In this document: positions 31,498-38,879 of the stretch, in pieces
How the letters are laid out: every line of letters starts with the position of its first letter
Position numbering within the stretch: the stretch's first letter is position 1
Assembly (NCBI RefSeq): GCF_000517085.1
Contig: NZ_KI912107.1
Coordinates: 4,523,980-4,587,979 of the forward strand
Source of the DNA: Saccharicrinis fermentans DSM 9555 = JCM 21142
GTDB taxonomy: Bacteria; Bacteroidota; Bacteroidia; Bacteroidales; Marinilabiliaceae
DNA: 64,000 bases
Direction: 5' to 3'
Notes under the pieces: generated by a model
Seen by the model: the letters and a program-made list of their open reading frames with translations, nothing else
Database searches by the model: none
Told to the model about the DNA's origin: nothing
Position numbers and translations under genes: made by a program

Positions 31498-32631
31498 TTA
31501 CATGCTTTTTAACCTAGCTGCAGCATCTAATATTTGTTCGTCGCTCACTGATAGGTTTATTTGTAAAAACTTTTTTTTGCTTTTTTCGTGGTAATAGAAA
31601 CTGATGGGCATGGTAGCAATATCCTGCTCGTGAATTAACTTGATGGCAATATCGATGTCATTTTTTTCTAATGAAGGCTCAAAACTTATCAATTGAAAAT
31701 AGGTTCCTTTGCTGGGTATGGCTTTGATCTTAGAGTCTTTGATGCAGGAGAGAAACAGGTCTCTTTTCCTTTGATGGAAAATAGCTAGCTGACTGAAATT
31801 ATTTTGTTGCTTCATCCATTCTGCAATGGCCATCTGATATGGTAATTGAATGCCTTCGCCAATGATATCAATCATCTTACGTATCTCTTTGGTCAGTTTG
31901 GCCGAAGCCATGCAATAGCCCACATGCCAATTGGGAATATGGAGCGTTTCATCAAAGGATGATACAATAATGCTGCGCTCTCGTAATAGTGGATAAAGCG
32001 CTATGCTCTGGTGCATCTCACCATCAAATACCATATGTTCAAAGGATTCATCACTTAAAACAACAATGTTGGTTCCGTTGAGTATTTTCTGAAGGCGAAT
32101 CATGTCCAGTTCTGACATGGTGGAGCCGGTAGGGAAATGTGGAGAGTTAATAATAATCATACGTGTTTGAGTAGATATTAATTTCTGTACTTCCTCCCAT
32201 TCTACATGAAAATCGGGTGAGCGTAGTGTAACATAAATAGCACGTGCTCCTGTTGTCTCAATTGCTTGCTCGTAGCTTCTGTGGGCTGGTTCAAAAACCA
32301 AAACCTCATCTCCCTCCTTTAATAAGGCCATTACTGAGGCAAAAATACTTTGTTTAACTCCGCTTGTTATGGTGACCTCTGTCTCTGGGTCATAGCTATA
32401 GTCGTATAACTTAGCAGTCTTGGCTGCGATAGAGGCTCGCAAGTCTAATAAGCCATATCTGGGGGAAGGTATGTTGGCATTCTGCAGTATTTTGGTAAGT
32501 AGTAATTGTTCTAATTCTGTACTGCATTTGACCAAGGAGTGACTCTCAGCCAGATTCAATAATGAATTTTCTCGTGCATATTCCACCATTGCCATAGGCG
32601 ATGTGAGGTTATTTGTATTGTGTATAGTCAT
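31498..32631 (-). CDS. Class I aminotransferase-fold protein lacking the PLP lysine (probable pseudoenzyme)
   Basis: A 377-residue fold-type I protein closest in pattern to methionine/kynurenine-type aminotransferases (YbdL group): IPSPRYGLLDLR, TSGVKQSIFASV, EPAHRSYEQAI, SDESFEHMVFDG. The segment that should read SSFGKTxHxxGWxVGY instead reads SSFDETLHIPNWHVGY, so the Schiff-base lysine is Glu228 (codon GAA). Three other PLP or substrate contacts also differ. The Asn of HNPTG is Phe166, the Tyr of DEVYEH is Phe197, and the C-terminal carboxylate-binding Arg appears to be Gln357. Asp194, which contacts the pyridine nitrogen, is kept. The frame is full length and undamaged. Ordinary transaminase activity is therefore unlikely; the protein may bind an amino acid or play a structural or regulatory role. 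Confidence 0.88.
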   Translation of the reverse strand: MTIHNTNNLTSPMAMVEYARENSLLNLAESHSLVKCSTELEQLLLTKILQNANIPSPRYGLLDLRASIAAKTAKLYDYSYDPETEVTITSGVKQSIFASVMALLKEGDEVLVFEPAHRSYEQAIETTGARAIYVTLRSPDFHVEWEEVQKLISTQTRMIIINSPHFPTGSTMSELDMIRLQKILNGTNIVVLSDESFEHMVFDGEMHQSIALYPLLRERSIIVSSFDETLHIPNWHVGYCMASAKLTKEIRKMIDIIGEGIQLPYQMAIAEWMKQQNNFSQLAIFHQRKRDLFLSCIKDSKIKAIPSKGTYFQLISFEPSLEKNDIDIAIKLIHEQDIATMPISFYYHEKSKKKFLQINLSVSDEQILDAAARLKSM

Positions 32632-32858
32632 AGCAATTAAATCATTCCTGTAATATGTTTGGTGGTTGATTTTAGGGTGTTAAAATGTTTTTTAACGACC
32701 TAATGTGGTGATAGCCTTATTTTTATCGCGTAAATCATGCTGTTAGTATAGCTTTTATAATGATCATGGCAAAAAGCAATTTACAAAAGTTTTTGCTATA
32801 AAGAGTTTCTAATGGGCAGAATAGCTTTAATATTCCGCCAACTGCGTATTTTATTCTA

Positions 32859-33587
32859 TTACCGGTACAATTCCTTGAGTACTTTGAGTGATTTAATATT
32901 TGAAAAGCCGGAAAGGTGAAGTTGGTAATATTCCAACATTTTTTCGATAAACTTTGTTCTATCATCCTGGCTTATTTGTAGTGAATCTAATTCTTCAATT
33001 CTAATTTCACTAAGCTGGCGTAGAATCGATGTCTCTGAATGGTTCATGTAATGGGGGTGTGCAGGTTCGCTTTGTTGAAATGTGCCTGTTTTTAGGTTAA
33101 AGTATGGAAGCGCTTCGTTACTGTCCATGGAAGGAAAAAAACCCAAAGGCCGTGTTAAGCGAAACAATAAAAATAAGTGAAAATTTTGAACACCAGGTAA
33201 ATGACTGTCCAGCATAGATATGGATTGATGTAGGAAGGTAAATAAGTTGGCATCTCTTTTGTCCTCTTGTTTTAAGGCTTTGTTAAGAACCTCTGCAAGG
33301 AAGAAAGCCAGACTGCGTCTGACGGGTTCAAATGGAATCTGGGTAAATGGGGTGTTTACTTTGAAATCTTTTATGCGGTGTATGGTTTTTTTTTCGGAAT
33401 GATATACTTCTAAATCCAACAGGGAGAGCGCTTGTAAAAAAACATGTTTGTCTTTTTTTTTTCGACTTCTAACTTGATTAATCATGTATGACTGAAGTCC
33501 TAATTTCTGGGTGTAGATGTGTGATATAATGCTCGATTCGGCATATCTAGTGTAGTTTAGAACGATTCCTCTAGTTGACTCAATCAT
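32859..33587 (-). CDS. recO: DNA repair protein RecO
   Basis: A 242-residue RecO protein of the RecFOR pathway, which loads RecA on gapped DNA. The N-terminal OB fold runs from MIESTRGIVLNYTRYAESS to about residue 80 (QSYMINQVRSRKKK). The helical C-terminal part has FHLFLLFRLTRPLGFFPSM. No zinc cysteines are present, as is usual in Bacteroidota. I chose ATG 33587, nine codons inside the longest frame, since MIESTRGIVL is the family start. It is followed by 227 nt of non-coding DNA before the aminotransferase-like gene. Confidence 0.93.
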   Translation of the reverse strand: MIESTRGIVLNYTRYAESSIISHIYTQKLGLQSYMINQVRSRKKKDKHVFLQALSLLDLEVYHSEKKTIHRIKDFKVNTPFTQIPFEPVRRSLAFFLAEVLNKALKQEDKRDANLFTFLHQSISMLDSHLPGVQNFHLFLLFRLTRPLGFFPSMDSNEALPYFNLKTGTFQQSEPAHPHYMNHSETSILRQLSEIRIEELDSLQISQDDRTKFIEKMLEYYQLHLSGFSNIKSLKVLKELYR

Positions 33588-33768
33588 GGATGCTTGTTTT
33601 GTGCAAAAGTACAAATTTTATTGTCAGTTAATGTTGCTTTTTGCCTGCAGACTTTTGTTAGGTGAATGTAGTGTATCATTTATCAAAATTTTGTTTTAAT
33701 CTGTGGTTGCTTCGTTATCTAGCTCCACTTCCCAATAGCAATCACCATGACTGGGCAGATAGTAGACG

Positions 33769-33801: not shown

Positions 33802-34467
33802 TTAAATGTTTAGGTATCTAATTAGGGCATCGTAATTTTTCTTCGTTACTTCATCTACAGTATTGTGTTCCGAGTAAGAGGCACTTACGGTGTAGTCATA
33901 TCGGTCGAAGGCTCTAAGTACTGGAGTTATATCTTCTCTGTTTAGTTTAATTGTAATCTTTAATGTGTCGCTTGCCTTGTTTTGGTTCAAGTAGAAACTT
34001 AGCACTTTGGTATCGGAATCTTCGATGATTCTGGCTATTTCTGATATTGAATAATCGTAGGAGGGCACATCTATTTCTACAATTCCACCAGGGGTATGAA
34101 CTGCAATTAAATCGGCAAAATTTTTCAATAAGTCGGTTTGTGTAATCAAGCCGAGGTATTCATTTTTGTCGGATAATACAGGAACCACAGTTAGCTGAAG
34201 TCTAGAAGCTACTTCGATAACAGCGTATATGTGTTGGTCTTGCGTAACAAAGGGAGCCGTCAAAGATAAAGGGAGGTTTCCCAGCGGTTCTTCAGGCTTG
34301 TTGATGTCATAGATATCTGTATCTGTCACTAGGCCCAGTAGCTCTTTGTTATTGACGATGGGAAGGTGCGATACCCTAAAAACCTCCATCCAGTTCAAGG
34401 CATTCAGGCCGGAATCTGAGGTTCGTAATGCGGGAACTATATCTGATATCAAATCTTTTGCTAACAT
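33802..34467 (-). CDS. CBS-domain pair protein (AcuB-like)
   Basis: A 221-residue cytoplasmic protein with two CBS motifs (about 1-55 with VSHLPIVNNKELLGLVTDTDI and 70-125 with LTVVPVLSDKNEYLGLITQTDLL). An ACT-like C-terminal region follows (about 130-215, GGIVEIDVPSYDYSISEIARII). This layout, which senses adenylates or other small ligands, is typical of AcuB-type proteins. It is divergent from pdxJ, an arrangement often seen in Bacteroidota. What it regulates is unknown. Confidence 0.88.
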   Translation of the reverse strand: MLAKDLISDIVPALRTSDSGLNALNWMEVFRVSHLPIVNNKELLGLVTDTDIYDINKPEEPLGNLPLSLTAPFVTQDQHIYAVIEVASRLQLTVVPVLSDKNEYLGLITQTDLLKNFADLIAVHTPGGIVEIDVPSYDYSISEIARIIEDSDTKVLSFYLNQNKASDTLKITIKLNREDITPVLRAFDRYDYTVSASYSEHNTVDEVTKKNYDALIRYLNI

Positions 34468-34644
34468 ACAATACTTTCAAGAAATACTCTTAACTTTGTC
34501 CCAAGGAGAGATAGTTGATTTCTCCTTTTTTTATAAGACTCAGGACTAAATTTAGTCGCATATATTGAAACAATCAAGTGAATGATTAGTTTATTTATGA
34601 TTTTTAGACTAATGCCCTGTGGATGATGACAAAACAAAATAGAG

Positions 34645-35364
34645 ATGACAAAGTTAAGTGTAAATATTAACAAGGTAGCCACCTTACGGAACTCAAGAGG
34701 TGGTGATCAACCCAATGTGCTGAAAGCGGCTATTGATGTTCAGGATTATGGTGCAGAGGGTGTTACTGTTCATCCACGTCCCGATGAAAGACATATTCGT
34801 TATCAGGATGTGATTGATATTAAACCTATTATAAAGACGGAATTTAATATCGAAGGATATCCTTCTACTGAGTTTATTGATTTGGTAAAAAAAGTGAAGC
34901 CTAATCAAGTTACTTTGGTACCTGATCCTCCTGAAGCGCTAACCTCTAATTCGGGTTGGGATACGATTAAGCATCGTTCTTTTTTGCAGGATGTGATTGC
35001 TGAATTTAGTGAAGTAGGTATTCGTACTTCCATATTCATAGATACTGATTTGGATAATATAAACAATGCTGCTAAAACAAATGCCGATCGGGTAGAGTTA
35101 TATACCGAGCCTTATGCGGCTATGTATGCCAAAGACAGAGAGGCTGCTATTGCTCCTTTTGTTGCTGCTGCTGAAATGGCTAAAAAGGCTGGTCTGAAAA
35201 TTAACGCAGGTCACGACTTAAGCCTAGAAAACTTGAGATTTTTCTCTGAGAGGATTCCTTTCCTGGCTGAGGTTTCCATAGGGCATGCACTTATTTGTGA
35301 TGCGTTGTACATGGGATTCGAGAAAACGATTAAACTTTACAAACAGCAGTTAGTAAGGATGTAG
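34645..35364 (+). CDS. pdxJ: Pyridoxine 5'-phosphate synthase
   Basis: A 239-residue TIM-barrel enzyme that condenses 1-deoxyxylulose 5-phosphate with 3-amino-2-oxopropyl phosphate to make pyridoxine 5'-phosphate. Family segments are [77 protein letters not shown] and EVSIGHALI. The length is normal. It is the first gene of a short plus-strand run with the hydrolase behind it (80-nt gap). Confidence 0.96.
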
Positions 35365-35444
35365 ATCTTACTTTAGTTGTAAAATATATAGAAACGGTTG
35401 TTTGTTTGTGTGATGCAAAAAAGTAACCGTTTTTTTTGAATGAT

Positions 35445-36260
35445 ATGATGATGCAATTATTCTTTAGGGAGTTAGGACAGGGAAGTAGAAACCTTATTAT
35501 TATCCATGGACTTTATGGATCATCTGATAACTGGCTTACCATAGCCAGGTTGTTGGGAGATGAGTTCCGGATATTTATTATTGATCAACGTAATCACGGA
35601 CAATCACCTCATTGTGATGAAATGAGTTATACCTTGATGGCGGATGATATCAAGCATTTTATGCTACAGCAAAATCTGGATAAAGCAATTGTTATGGGGC
35701 ATTCCATGGGAGGAAAAACCGCCATGGCTTTTGCCTTGCAGAATCCGAATTTGGTGGAGAAGTTGGTGATCTTAGATATTGCACCTAAGTCGTACGGAGG
35801 CTTTAGTAATTATGCGCAAATTACCAATGACCACAGAGCAATTGTGGACGCTCTGCTCTCCATTGATCCATCACAACACCATTCGCGTAGTTCGGTGGAT
35901 AAGGCCTTAAAAGATAAGATTCCCAATAATATGGTTCGTTCTTTTTTGCTTAAAAATATTGGGAGAGCAGACGATAAACAATTGTATTGGAAGCTGAATA
36001 TAAAAGCTATTTCTGATAATCTGACTAAGATAATGGATGGACTGGATGAATTTGATGCAGCAGAGGAGTTTCCTGCTGAAAAGGCGGTTATATTGATTCG
36101 TGGTGCTCAATCGCCTTATGTTCAAGATGAGGATATGCAGCAAGTACGTAAATATTTCCCTTCGGCCCAATTGGCTGATATTCCTGATGCAGGGCATTGG
36201 CTTCATGCTGAACAACCTGATATATTTATAAAAACAGTAAAGTACTTTTTGGATAGTTAG
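35445..36260 (+). CDS. Alpha/beta-hydrolase fold esterase (YbfF-like)
   Basis: A hydrolase of 271 residues. It shows the oxyanion segment IIHGLYGSSDNW, the nucleophile elbow GHSMGG with Ser87, DQRNHGQSPH and the terminal histidine in PDAGHWLHAEQP (His251). That order matches the YbfF/PHA-like esterase group. I used the first ATG (35445); two more follow directly and a TTG precedes. Without knowing the pocket, only general carboxylester hydrolysis can be suggested. Confidence 0.88.
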   Translation: MMMQLFFRELGQGSRNLIIIHGLYGSSDNWLTIARLLGDEFRIFIIDQRNHGQSPHCDEMSYTLMADDIKHFMLQQNLDKAIVMGHSMGGKTAMAFALQNPNLVEKLVILDIAPKSYGGFSNYAQITNDHRAIVDALLSIDPSQHHSRSSVDKALKDKIPNNMVRSFLLKNIGRADDKQLYWKLNIKAISDNLTKIMDGLDEFDAAEEFPAEKAVILIRGAQSPYVQDEDMQQVRKYFPSAQLADIPDAGHWLHAEQPDIFIKTVKYFLDS

Positions 36261-36422: not shown

Positions 36423-38879
36423 TTAAATAAATAGATTCAAATTTGATTGCTCTGCTTCTTCCAGATAATTGGCCACGCCTCCTATGGTGACACCTTCAAT
36501 GAGCTCTTCTTTTTGAACCCCCATGATATCCATACTCATCTGGCAAGCTATCATTTGAATGCCACTTTTTTGGGCTTGTTGTATCATGGTTTCAAGTGCA
36601 TCCACATTCTTGTCTTTCATGCGCAGTTTCATCATGCGACGCCCCATCCCAGCCATGTTCATATTGGAGAGCTTAAGTTTGCCGGCGTGACCTGGCATCA
36701 TCTTATCAAACATACTGCCCATCATATCTTTTTTTACTCTGGGTCTATGGGCGTCTTTTATAACGTTAAGGCCCCAGAAGGTAAAAAACATAGTTACTTT
36801 CTTACCCATGCTGGCAGCACCATTCGCAATAACAAAAGAAGCCAGCGCCCTGTCCATATCGTCGCTGAACACAACCATGGTTTTGTGGTCGTTCCGCTTT
36901 GTTGAATGGGCACTCTTTTTGGGGTCTTCCTTGGTTTTTTCTATAACGGCTGTGATTTCACCTGCGTTATTTTCCCTCTTTACCAGTTGGTGGCCGGTGA
37001 CTTTACACCATGAGGCAACATCATTGTAAAAGCCTGGATCGGTGGCTTTTACTTCTAAACGCTCTCCATATGCTATGGAGTCGATGCTTTCTTTTAATTT
37101 TAACACAGGACCCGGACATTGTAAACCACAAGCATCAACGGCCATAGCCTTGATGTTGATAGGGGGTATCACTGTCTTTGCAGCGTCGTTCGTTTCTTCA
37201 TGGGAGGTGAAATAGATGGGGTTTGATTGTTCTGCCATGGTTTGATTGTATACTTTTAGTCCTCCCGAAAGATTGTATACTTCATCAAATCCATTTTGCT
37301 TTAGGATTCTGGCTGCCACATAACCACGGAGTCCTACACCACAATAAATCATAATCTTCTTGTCGCGAGGAATTGAATCCAGATTAGCACGTAGCTTATC
37401 TAGCTCAATGTTAACAGCATCTTCGATGGCATCAATGACATATTCTTCTGATGTGCGAACATCCAACACAAAAACATCCTGTTTGACTCTTTTGTGGAAG
37501 TGAAATGGTGAAAGGGGTTTAAATAAACCTTTTATAATATTTTCAGCATTGTAGCCGGCTTGGTTAACAGGGTCTTTTGCAGAACTAAACGGTGGTGCAT
37601 AGGCATGTTCTATTTCTTGTAAATCGTATATGGTTCCGTTGTTTTTAATTACAGTTGCTAATAAGTCGAGCCTTTTGTCCACGCCTTTGTAACCGATTAC
37701 CTGCCCACCATACAGCTTGCCTGATTCAGGGTCAAAACTAATTTTAAGCATCATTTGAGTGGAGCCTGGGTAATAGCCTGCATGGGAGCCCGCATGTACA
37801 ATGGTACAATCATGTTTGATGCCCAGTGCTTTTAGTCCTCGGTGAGTCATTCCGGTGATTCCGGCTGTCATATCAAAAACCTTTGCAATGGCAGTTCCAA
37901 TAGAACCTTTGTATTTTCTATGGTGTCCATATACTATGTTGTCTGCCAAAATTCTCCCTTGGCGGTTTGCTGGTCCTGCCAAAAATGCAATGGCTGGTTT
38001 GTGCGTGATGGGGTGGGGGAATTCAATGCTATCGCCTACGGCATAAATATCTTGAACTGAGGTCTGTAGGTATTCATCTACCCAAACACCTCCCGTTTCT
38101 CCTATTTTTAATCCGGCCGCTTTGGCTAACGATGTGTCTGGTTTAACGCCTATAGAAAGGATAATGAAGTCAGCTCGAATAATGCGTCCGCTGGAAAGAA
38201 TTACTTCAATGCTGTTAGCTTGTTGTTTAAATTCTTTAACGGCGTCCTTCAGAAACAGAGCCACTTCTTTTTCTTTAAAATGATGATGCAAAGGGGCAGC
38301 GACCTCGCTGTCCATCATGTTCATCACCTGTTCAGAAGCCTCTACCACCGAAACGTTTACGCCGCGATGGTGCAGGTTTTCTGCCATTTCCAGACCTATA
38401 AAGCCTGCTCCTACCACTACGGCAGATCGTGGTGCTTTATCGTCTACGAATGCTTTTATTTTATCTGTATCCGGTACGTTGCGTAAGGTAAAAATATTGG
38501 GTAGATTAATACCTGGTATGGGTGGTTTAACTGGGAGTGCTCCCGGAGATAACACTAGTTTGTCATAGCTTTCGGTATATGTTTCTCCTGTTTTTAAGGA
38601 CTGAACTATTATCTCTTTTTTGTCTGGGTGAATAGCGCTTACTAAAGAATGTATTCTAATGTCAATGTTAAAACGAGTACCAAATGATTCAGGAGTTTGA
38701 ACGAGTAGTTTTTCGCGTTCTTTTATGACGCCGCCGATATAGTATGGTAAACCACAATTTGCATATGAAATATGTGGTCCTTTTTCAAACATTATGATTT
38801 CGGCATGTTCGTCAACTCTTCTTAAGCGGGCTGCCGTGGTGGCGCCTCCGGCAACTCCTCCTACAATTAAGTATTTCAT
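36423..38879 (-). CDS. CoA-disulfide reductase fused to rhodanese, TusA-like and DsrE-like domains
   Basis: An 818-residue cytoplasmic fusion. Residues 1-445 are an FAD/NAD(P)-dependent CoA-disulfide reductase: IVGGVAGGATTAARLRR, redox Cys42 in SYANCGLPY, a second nucleotide fold VVVGAGFIGLEMAENL and AVGDSIE. Residues about 460-555 are a rhodanese (VLDVRTSEEY, active Cys513 in IMIYCGVGLRGY). Residues about 580-650 are a TusA-like domain (DACGLQCPGPVLKLK, Cys588). Residues about 670-818 are a DsrE/DsrF-like domain (ending with Cys779 in MIACQMSMDIMG). This is a complete sulfur-relay chain for persulfide or polysulfide handling in one polypeptide. Such four-part proteins exist in anaerobic Bacteroidota. 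A palindrome at 39046-39059 lies upstream. Confidence 0.93.
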   Translation of the reverse strand: MKYLIVGGVAGGATTAARLRRVDEHAEIIMFEKGPHISYANCGLPYYIGGVIKEREKLLVQTPESFGTRFNIDIRIHSLVSAIHPDKKEIIVQSLKTGETYTESYDKLVLSPGALPVKPPIPGINLPNIFTLRNVPDTDKIKAFVDDKAPRSAVVVGAGFIGLEMAENLHHRGVNVSVVEASEQVMNMMDSEVAAPLHHHFKEKEVALFLKDAVKEFKQQANSIEVILSSGRIIRADFIILSIGVKPDTSLAKAAGLKIGETGGVWVDEYLQTSVQDIYAVGDSIEFPHPITHKPAIAFLAGPANRQGRILADNIVYGHHRKYKGSIGTAIAKVFDMTAGITGMTHRGLKALGIKHDCTIVHAGSHAGYYPGSTQMMLKISFDPESGKLYGGQVIGYKGVDKRLDLLATVIKNNGTIYDLQEIEHAYAPPFSSAKDPVNQAGYNAENIIKGLFKPLSPFHFHKRVKQDVFVLDVRTSEEYVIDAIEDAVNIELDKLRANLDSIPRDKKIMIYCGVGLRGYVAARILKQNGFDEVYNLSGGLKVYNQTMAEQSNPIYFTSHEETNDAAKTVIPPINIKAMAVDACGLQCPGPVLKLKESIDSIAYGERLEVKATDPGFYNDVASWCKVTGHQLVKRENNAGEITAVIEKTKEDPKKSAHSTKRNDHKTMVVFSDDMDRALASFVIANGAASMGKKVTMFFTFWGLNVIKDAHRPRVKKDMMGSMFDKMMPGHAGKLKLSNMNMAGMGRRMMKLRMKDKNVDALETMIQQAQKSGIQMIACQMSMDIMGVQKEELIEGVTIGGVANYLEEAEQSNLNLFI

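Follow-up and report, generated by a model that had tools for sequence, protein, structure and literature searches.

A conserved aminotransferase-fold protein without the PLP lysine, encoded beside recO in Saccharicrinis fermentans and related Marinilabiliaceae

Introduction

Lysine-less relatives of PLP enzymes are already known, and SPT1/LCB1, Rv3778c and ColD are examples. ColD, the GDP-4-keto-6-deoxymannose-3-dehydratase, is a fold-type I protein in which His stands in place of the lysine and which still uses B6. SPT1/LCB1, the non-catalytic subunit of serine palmitoyltransferase, is described in the portion of PMC6148460 used here as a fold-type I protein that lacks the lysine and has nevertheless been kept. 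Rv3778c of Mycobacterium tuberculosis is a lysine-less relative of PLP enzymes and is judged, in the portion of PMC12910592 used here, to be expressed and non-catalytic. According to the relevant passages of a review (PMC9309667), conservation of the PLP lysine is absolute among catalytically active aminotransferases, one Asp and one Arg are shared almost generally, and an Asn, a Tyr, a phosphate-binding Arg and a Tyr of the partner subunit are approximately 90% conserved in class I. A limited search of the open-access literature returned no paper on a lysine-less clade of the YbdL type.

In this study, we analyse one gene in a 64,000-nucleotide stretch of contig NZ_KI912107.1 of Saccharicrinis fermentans DSM 9555 = JCM 21142 (hereafter the window). 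The original prediction, made from this DNA alone, held that an aminotransferase-fold protein has Glu in place of the PLP lysine and has lost three further contacts, and that these losses in an open frame point to selection for a non-transaminase role rather than to simple decay.

Results

The predicted full open frame is present. It runs on the minus strand from ATG to stop over 377 residues without an internal stop, and the plus-strand frame of the same interval contains many stops. The protein matches Pfam Aminotran_1_2 (E 1.6e-40), and its AlphaFold2 model (pLDDT 92.8, pTM 0.91) has E. coli YbdL (1u08) as its top Foldseek match, with a TM of 0.94 and 31% identity; phmmer gives 1.6e-71 for the same pair. 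By Pfam, model and Foldseek, the protein belongs to the fold type I aminotransferases (class I, KAT/YbdL clade). Its score for the NCBIfam methionine aminotransferase NF006569 is 348 bits against a cut-off of 420, in a comparison that covers the window protein alone. The nearest named relatives, among the best 80 of 477 matches, are Labilibacter, Plebeiobacterium, Marinilabilia, Anaerophaga and Carboxylicivirga; on the best matches of this single protein, the genome is placed in Marinilabiliaceae. A search for viral relatives gave a single distant match (22% identity). The features of the locus are collected in Table 1.

Table 1 Position and distribution of the features of the locus, numbered from the first nucleotide of the window
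Feature	Position	Strand	Evidence or distribution
Lysine-less YbdL/KAT-type aminotransferase-fold gene	31498..32631	minus	377 aa, P0001; Pfam, AlphaFold2 model, Foldseek
Gln357, substrate-carboxylate Arg in relatives	31561..31563	minus	Arg 31/32; Gln only in this species
Asn359, Cys in Lys-bearing relatives	31555..31557	minus	Asn 32/32 family vs Cys 149/150
His236, PLP-phosphate Lys/Arg in relatives	31924..31926	minus	Family Gln 21, His 6, Pro 3, Asn 2, n=32
Glu228 codon GAA, PLP-lysine position	31948..31950	minus	Glu in 30/32 family sequences, 41/47 gene-bearing genomes
Phe197, PLP-ring-contacting Tyr in relatives	32041..32043	minus	Phe 27, Tyr 4, Met 1 of 32
Residues 174-187, helix with fixed Glu174, Arg179, Gln181, then NGT motif	32071..32112	minus	32/32 each
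Phe166, Asn of HNPTG in relatives	32134..32136	minus	Genus: Phe 6, Tyr 1, n=7
Lys93, phosphate-loop Thr in relatives	32353..32355	minus	Genus: Lys 6, Arg 1, n=7
Pro55, partner-subunit phosphate Tyr in relatives	32467..32469	minus	Tyr 4/32 family, 150/150 Lys-bearing
Genus-conserved element AACTTTTGTAAATTG, recO-gene gap	32777..32791	minus	Variants in 7/7 genus loci examined
recO, directly upstream of the gene	32859..33614	minus	Pfam RecO_N, RecO_C; likelier start ATG 33587

In the alignment with YbdL (1u08), the Lys of SSFGKT, the Asn of HNPS, the Tyr of SDEVYEH and the Arg of LIRLCFA correspond to Glu228, Phe166, Phe197 and Gln357, respectively. This alignment bears out the four substitutions first reported and their numbering, namely Glu228 (GAA, read from 31950 to 31948), HNPTG changed to HFPTG at residue 166, DEVYEH changed to DESFEH at residue 197, and Gln357 for Arg. 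Three more cofactor positions are changed: the Tyr and the Lys that YbdL has at residues 55 and 236 are Pro55 and His236 here, and Lys93 stands in place of the Thr of the relatives. Asp194 and Ser225 are retained. Set against the seven cofactor and substrate positions listed in the passages of PMC9309667 used here, six are changed in the window protein. Glu228 replaces the Schiff-base lysine and Gln357 the substrate-carboxylate Arg, Phe166 and Phe197 replace the Asn and Tyr at the pyridine ring, and His236 and Pro55 replace the phosphate-binding Arg/Lys and the Tyr of the partner subunit. Only the Asp at the pyridine nitrogen (Asp194) is kept, and Thr93 is changed besides.

The family set comprises 71 genomes of the window's family, which is Marinilabiliaceae by best matches, and the gene, called at E 1e-60, is present in 47 of them. 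At this threshold, each gene-bearing genome has one YbdL-type copy; the copy of G002 is split at contig ends. The other 24 genomes, 15 of which fall within one genus, have no full match, although one of them (G005) retains a fragment of 114 residues. Position 228 is Glu in 41 of the gene-bearing genomes, Gln in three (L253, L254, L256), His in one (L020), Thr in one (L031) and Ile in one (L255), the last being uncertain since it lies in a poorly matching stretch of the alignment. The Gln, His, Thr and Ile members show that Glu228 is not indispensable. Lys occurs in none of the 47, and the close relatives with Lys at 228 that would have spoken against the original prediction were therefore not found. 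The nine genomes of the window's own genus include eight that cover the position (seven full-length and the partial copy G002/L029), all with Glu. The codon is GAA in 23 of the 32 deduplicated family sequences, GAG in seven, CAC in one and ACA in one. Because the Glu codon varies between GAA and GAG, the residue rather than the codon is held. A sequencing error at GAA is excluded, both by these codons and by the eight genomes of the genus with Glu.

The 32 family sequences were compared with 150 relatives that were chosen for having Lys at 228 and no recO match, a set that is therefore 150/150 Lys by construction and is no random sample; four divergent Lys rows were kept out of it. Lys236 is lost in all 32 family sequences, and the 150 relatives have Lys in 149 cases and Arg in one. 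Thr93 is present in 150/150 relatives vs 10/32 family sequences. Position 166 in the family is Asn in 15 sequences, Phe in six, Ser in four, Ala in four, Tyr in one and Thr in one, counts that cover 31 of the 32; all six Phe belong to the window's genus, and elsewhere in the family the residue is mostly Asn. Position 194 is Asp in 23, Glu in eight and Ile in one. Judged by their distribution, the active-site changes differ in age: Glu228 and the loss of Lys236 are family-wide, Phe166 belongs to the genus and Gln357 to this species. Each of the four losses first described is thus real, and they do not form a single package. Conservation as a clade holds for Glu228 and, commonly, for Phe197; it does not hold for Phe166 or Gln357.

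Other residues have become fixed. Glu174, Arg179, Gln181 and Asn359 are present in 32/32 family sequences and are variable or different in the 150 Lys-bearing relatives. The first three lie on a helix (residues 174-184 of the AlphaFold2 model) that follows the HxPTG loop, and Asn359 lies two residues from Arg357. The fixation of three residues on one helix suggests that it may form a surface for contacts.

Part of the pocket also persists in the family: Ser225 (31/32), Trp235 (32/32) and Arg357 (31/32). With these residues kept, the pocket could take a carboxylate ligand. Together with the near-fixation of Glu228 and the one member with His228, their retention could also serve a new chemistry in which Glu228 acts as a general acid/base in a remodelled pocket, either on PMP/PLP held without a Schiff base, as with the His of ColD, or on another substrate without any B6. 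We consider this unlikely, since Tyr55 survives in so few family sequences and Lys236 in none, which makes B6 binding improbable, and since Glu gives way to Gln, His, Thr or Ile in six of the 47 genomes. Since position 228 has no lysine, it cannot form a Schiff base with PLP. As the phosphate clamp is gone, non-covalent PLP binding would also be unlikely; some non-covalent binding of B6 is possible, with Asp194 and Ser225 mostly kept. The protein most likely neither carries PLP nor transaminates.

No second YbdL-type copy is present in the genome of S. fermentans, and the next-best match to the protein has 24% identity. This finding bears on a second alternative, in which the protein pairs as a non-catalytic subunit with a different aminotransferase of class I, as SPT1/LCB1 does with SPT2/LCB2. 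The passages of PMC9309667 used here place class I active sites at a subunit interface, so a dead partner can matter, and SPT1 is itself without the lysine (PMC6148460, in the portion used). However, that best match in its own genome is no close catalytic paralogue, and none of the ten window neighbours scanned with Pfam is an aminotransferase. We therefore regard such a heterodimer as rather improbable.

Trees were built on 101 (quick) and 67 (careful) of 203 deduplicated rows. The 32 family sequences form one clade in the 67-row tree (support 100/99), and the genus branch is long (0.64). All lysine-less rows fall inside one divergent group of 49 rows that also contains Lys rows; its support is 95 in the quick tree and a weak 90/48 in the careful tree. 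On the 67-row tree, position 228 must have switched between Lys and another residue six times or more, a count that gives no direction. One genome (G125) has a Lys-bearing copy (L209) and a second YbdL-type copy (L220) in which both the lysine position (SFGELNSMSGW) and residue 236 are Glu; L220 is not beside recO and groups outside the Marinilabiliaceae clade. Three recO-linked loci, L147 and L174 with Lys228 and L178 with Ile228, have Gly in place of Arg357; here the active site was lost by another route.

In 46 of the 47 gene-bearing family genomes, the sequence immediately upstream of the gene matches recO; in the 47th (L254), the contig ends there. At L028, which is one of the 46, and at L057 (Natronoflexus pectinivorans), only 24 recO residues match upstream and the profile search missed L028; recO may be broken or misassembled there. 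Among 160 Lys-bearing relatives, seven are linked to recO (L130, L141, L147, L174, L218, L219 and L222), 146 are not, and seven have an upstream sequence too short for a call (under 900 bases). In the 67-row tree, L130 and L141 fall within the canonical proteins. The other recO-linked lysine-less loci are L102 (Prolixibacteraceae, Thr), L215 and L217 (Pro) and L178 (Ile), and four lysine-less loci have no recO linkage by profile search: L032 (Ile), L216 and L223 (Arg) and L220 (Glu). Two further genomes (G195 and G295), both with Lys and without a recO match, stand outside all counts, and seven weak second copies were left out of the locus set. Because seven Lys-bearing relatives are linked and four lysine-less relatives are unlinked, recO linkage was rejected as the cause of the lysine loss. 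The gap between recO and the gene measures approximately 70-640 bases, which argues against a tight operon, and the linkage may be inherited synteny rather than a sign of a shared task.

Within this gap, variants of the element AACTTTTGTAAATTG centre on TT(T/C)GTAAATT, 65-193 bases before the start, in 7/7 loci of a genus with nine genomes. A longer form of the element has one exact match in the genome, at this gene, and the reversed pattern, used as a control, has one forward and one reverse match. The element is possibly the gene's own promoter element. The classical promoter of Bacteroidetes reads TTTG-N(17-23)-TAnnTTTG; this pattern occurs in none of 33 recO-gene gaps (32 from the family and that of L102), where 0.38 would be expected, and the looser form TAnnTTT occurs in six of the 33 vs 1.64 expected, a mild excess. 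A tRNA in the gap was rejected, as the whole window contains none, and so was an Rfam element, as only tRNAs matched in 15 loci (L001 included). Of the 16 relatives scanned, 11 have a tRNA-Arg(cct) on the downstream side of the gene, at a distance of up to approximately 2 kb; the window has none.

Further upstream of recO, the interval 33802-36260 carries three genes: one for a CBS-domain protein, the PLP-biosynthesis gene pdxJ and one for an alpha/beta hydrolase. Near recO of Labilibacter marinus (L035), counterparts of all three follow the same order. The minus strand at 36423-38879 encodes an 818-aa protein in which a pyridine-nucleotide-disulphide oxidoreductase is fused to rhodanese, TusA and DsrE-like domains (Pfam). 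An unannotated gene of 450-495 aa (cluster 2) lies on the opposite strand upstream of recO in eight of 16 neighbourhoods (L036-L038, L041, L043-L045 and L052) and is absent from the window. According to the passages of PMC9309667 used here, an omega-amidase neighbour is expected for enzymes of the glutamine transaminase K type. At least 33 of 150 Lys-bearing relatives stand before such a gene vs 0 of 53 other loci, in flanks of mostly 1.5-3.5 kb, and none was found beside the window gene. That omega-amidase was lost along with the lysine was rejected, because a match at E 1e-10 is present in 55 of the 61 genomes searched (49 strong and six weak, the latter at E 1e-14 to 1e-17); the match in the genome of S. 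fermentans, one of the strong ones, has E 1.6e-70.

The four close family pairs that were measured gave dN/dS values of 0.033, 0.042, 0.055 and 0.063, which indicates strong purifying selection in pairs that all lie outside the window's own genus, whose members are too far apart. For recO, dN/dS was measurable in two of these pairs (0.055 and 0.063), and the values of the gene are near these. An earlier run on three Lys-less pairs gave 0.014 (dS 1.5), 0.033 and 0.055. The median over 152 Lys-bearing pairs is 0.154, a value that includes more distant pairs and is no matched control. Among 31 family sequences, the median pairwise identity of the protein is 48% vs 43% for RecO, and the protein is the more similar in 321 of 465 pairs. 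One of the 47 genomes (G340; L256, Gln228) has a match that continues in another frame after approximately residue 274, a shift that either nature or assembly may have produced.

These data bear on relaxed decay, according to which a dispensable aminotransferase is held in place only by its synteny with recO. The repeated changes between Lys and several other residues on the 67-row tree, the varying pocket positions, the one shifted frame and the family genomes without a full match agree with decay. However, the low dN/dS, near that of recO where both were measured, the higher identity than that of RecO and the new residues fixed in every family sequence run counter to it, and we think decay very unlikely. 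Low dN/dS in the four close pairs makes a kept non-transaminase role a better explanation than decay. Moreover, Lys is absent from all 47 gene-bearing family genomes, and on both grounds the claim that a non-transaminase role is to be preferred to simple decay stands. The conservation pattern is not that of a dying gene, and the one shifted frame and the long genus branch speak for some weakening. The variable pocket and the long genus branch could reflect either a reduced constraint on the pocket or a new ligand. A transaminase that still works by an unusual route is hardly credible: Asp194 is mostly kept, and Arg357 too outside this species, but the phosphate clamp is gone and the lysine is, in the passages of PMC9309667 used here, absolutely conserved in active aminotransferases.

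Discussion

Because the fold is kept, most cofactor contacts are lost and the gene is conserved beside recO, the protein probably has a different job. We favour, with moderate confidence, a conserved pseudo-aminotransferase that would bind a ligand or regulate without PLP. According to this reading, an ancestor of the YbdL/kynurenine-aminotransferase type (class I, fold type I) would have lost the PLP lysine, and in Marinilabiliaceae this loss would have been fixed mostly as Glu, with Tyr55, Lys236 and often Tyr197 lost as well. The predicted fold has been retained, and Asn359 and, on one helix, Glu174, Arg179 and Gln181 are newly fixed, with Glu228 nearly so. With Arg357 present in most members, though not in this species, the old pocket might hold a ligand that resembles an amino or keto acid, which is a guess; alternatively, Glu228 may fill the pocket. 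The fixed helix would be a protein contact and the protein a regulator or scaffold, whose partner we can only guess.

A wider proposal joins these elements into a distinct, mostly recO-linked and B6-free pseudo-aminotransferase family of Bacteroidales. Its members would have lost the lysine in several parallel events, the new surface helix and Asn359 would have been fixed in Marinilabiliaceae, and the protein would act as an amino-acid sensor or scaffold in recombinational repair or its regulation. Taken as a whole, we regard this proposal as a long shot.

If the favoured pseudo-aminotransferase reading is correct, the locus is a clean example from nature of an enzyme scaffold that selection has maintained after the cofactor was shed. 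Intermediates exist, both as recO-linked relatives that bear Lys and as others with different replacement residues, and the order of events and the requirements of the new function are therefore testable. In addition, the label "methionine aminotransferase" is probably wrong for the lysine-less genes.

Among the known systems, Rv3778c is of the cysteine-desulfurase type, whereas the window protein is of the class I aminotransferase type. The window protein resembles SPT1/LCB1 in that the lysine is absent and the gene is conserved in its family; it differs in that SPT1/LCB1 belongs to another family (AOS) and pairs with a close catalytic paralogue, of which none was found here. ColD combines its His with a B6 phosphate site that is kept, whereas Glu occupies the lysine position here and Tyr55 and Lys236 are lost. 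The clade of YbdL and kynurenine aminotransferase/glutamine transaminase K has the PLP lysine, the phosphate-binding Tyr and Lys and the ring Tyr, none of which the window protein has (its ring residue is Phe), and it is this clade that the window protein resembles in fold, length and overall sequence.
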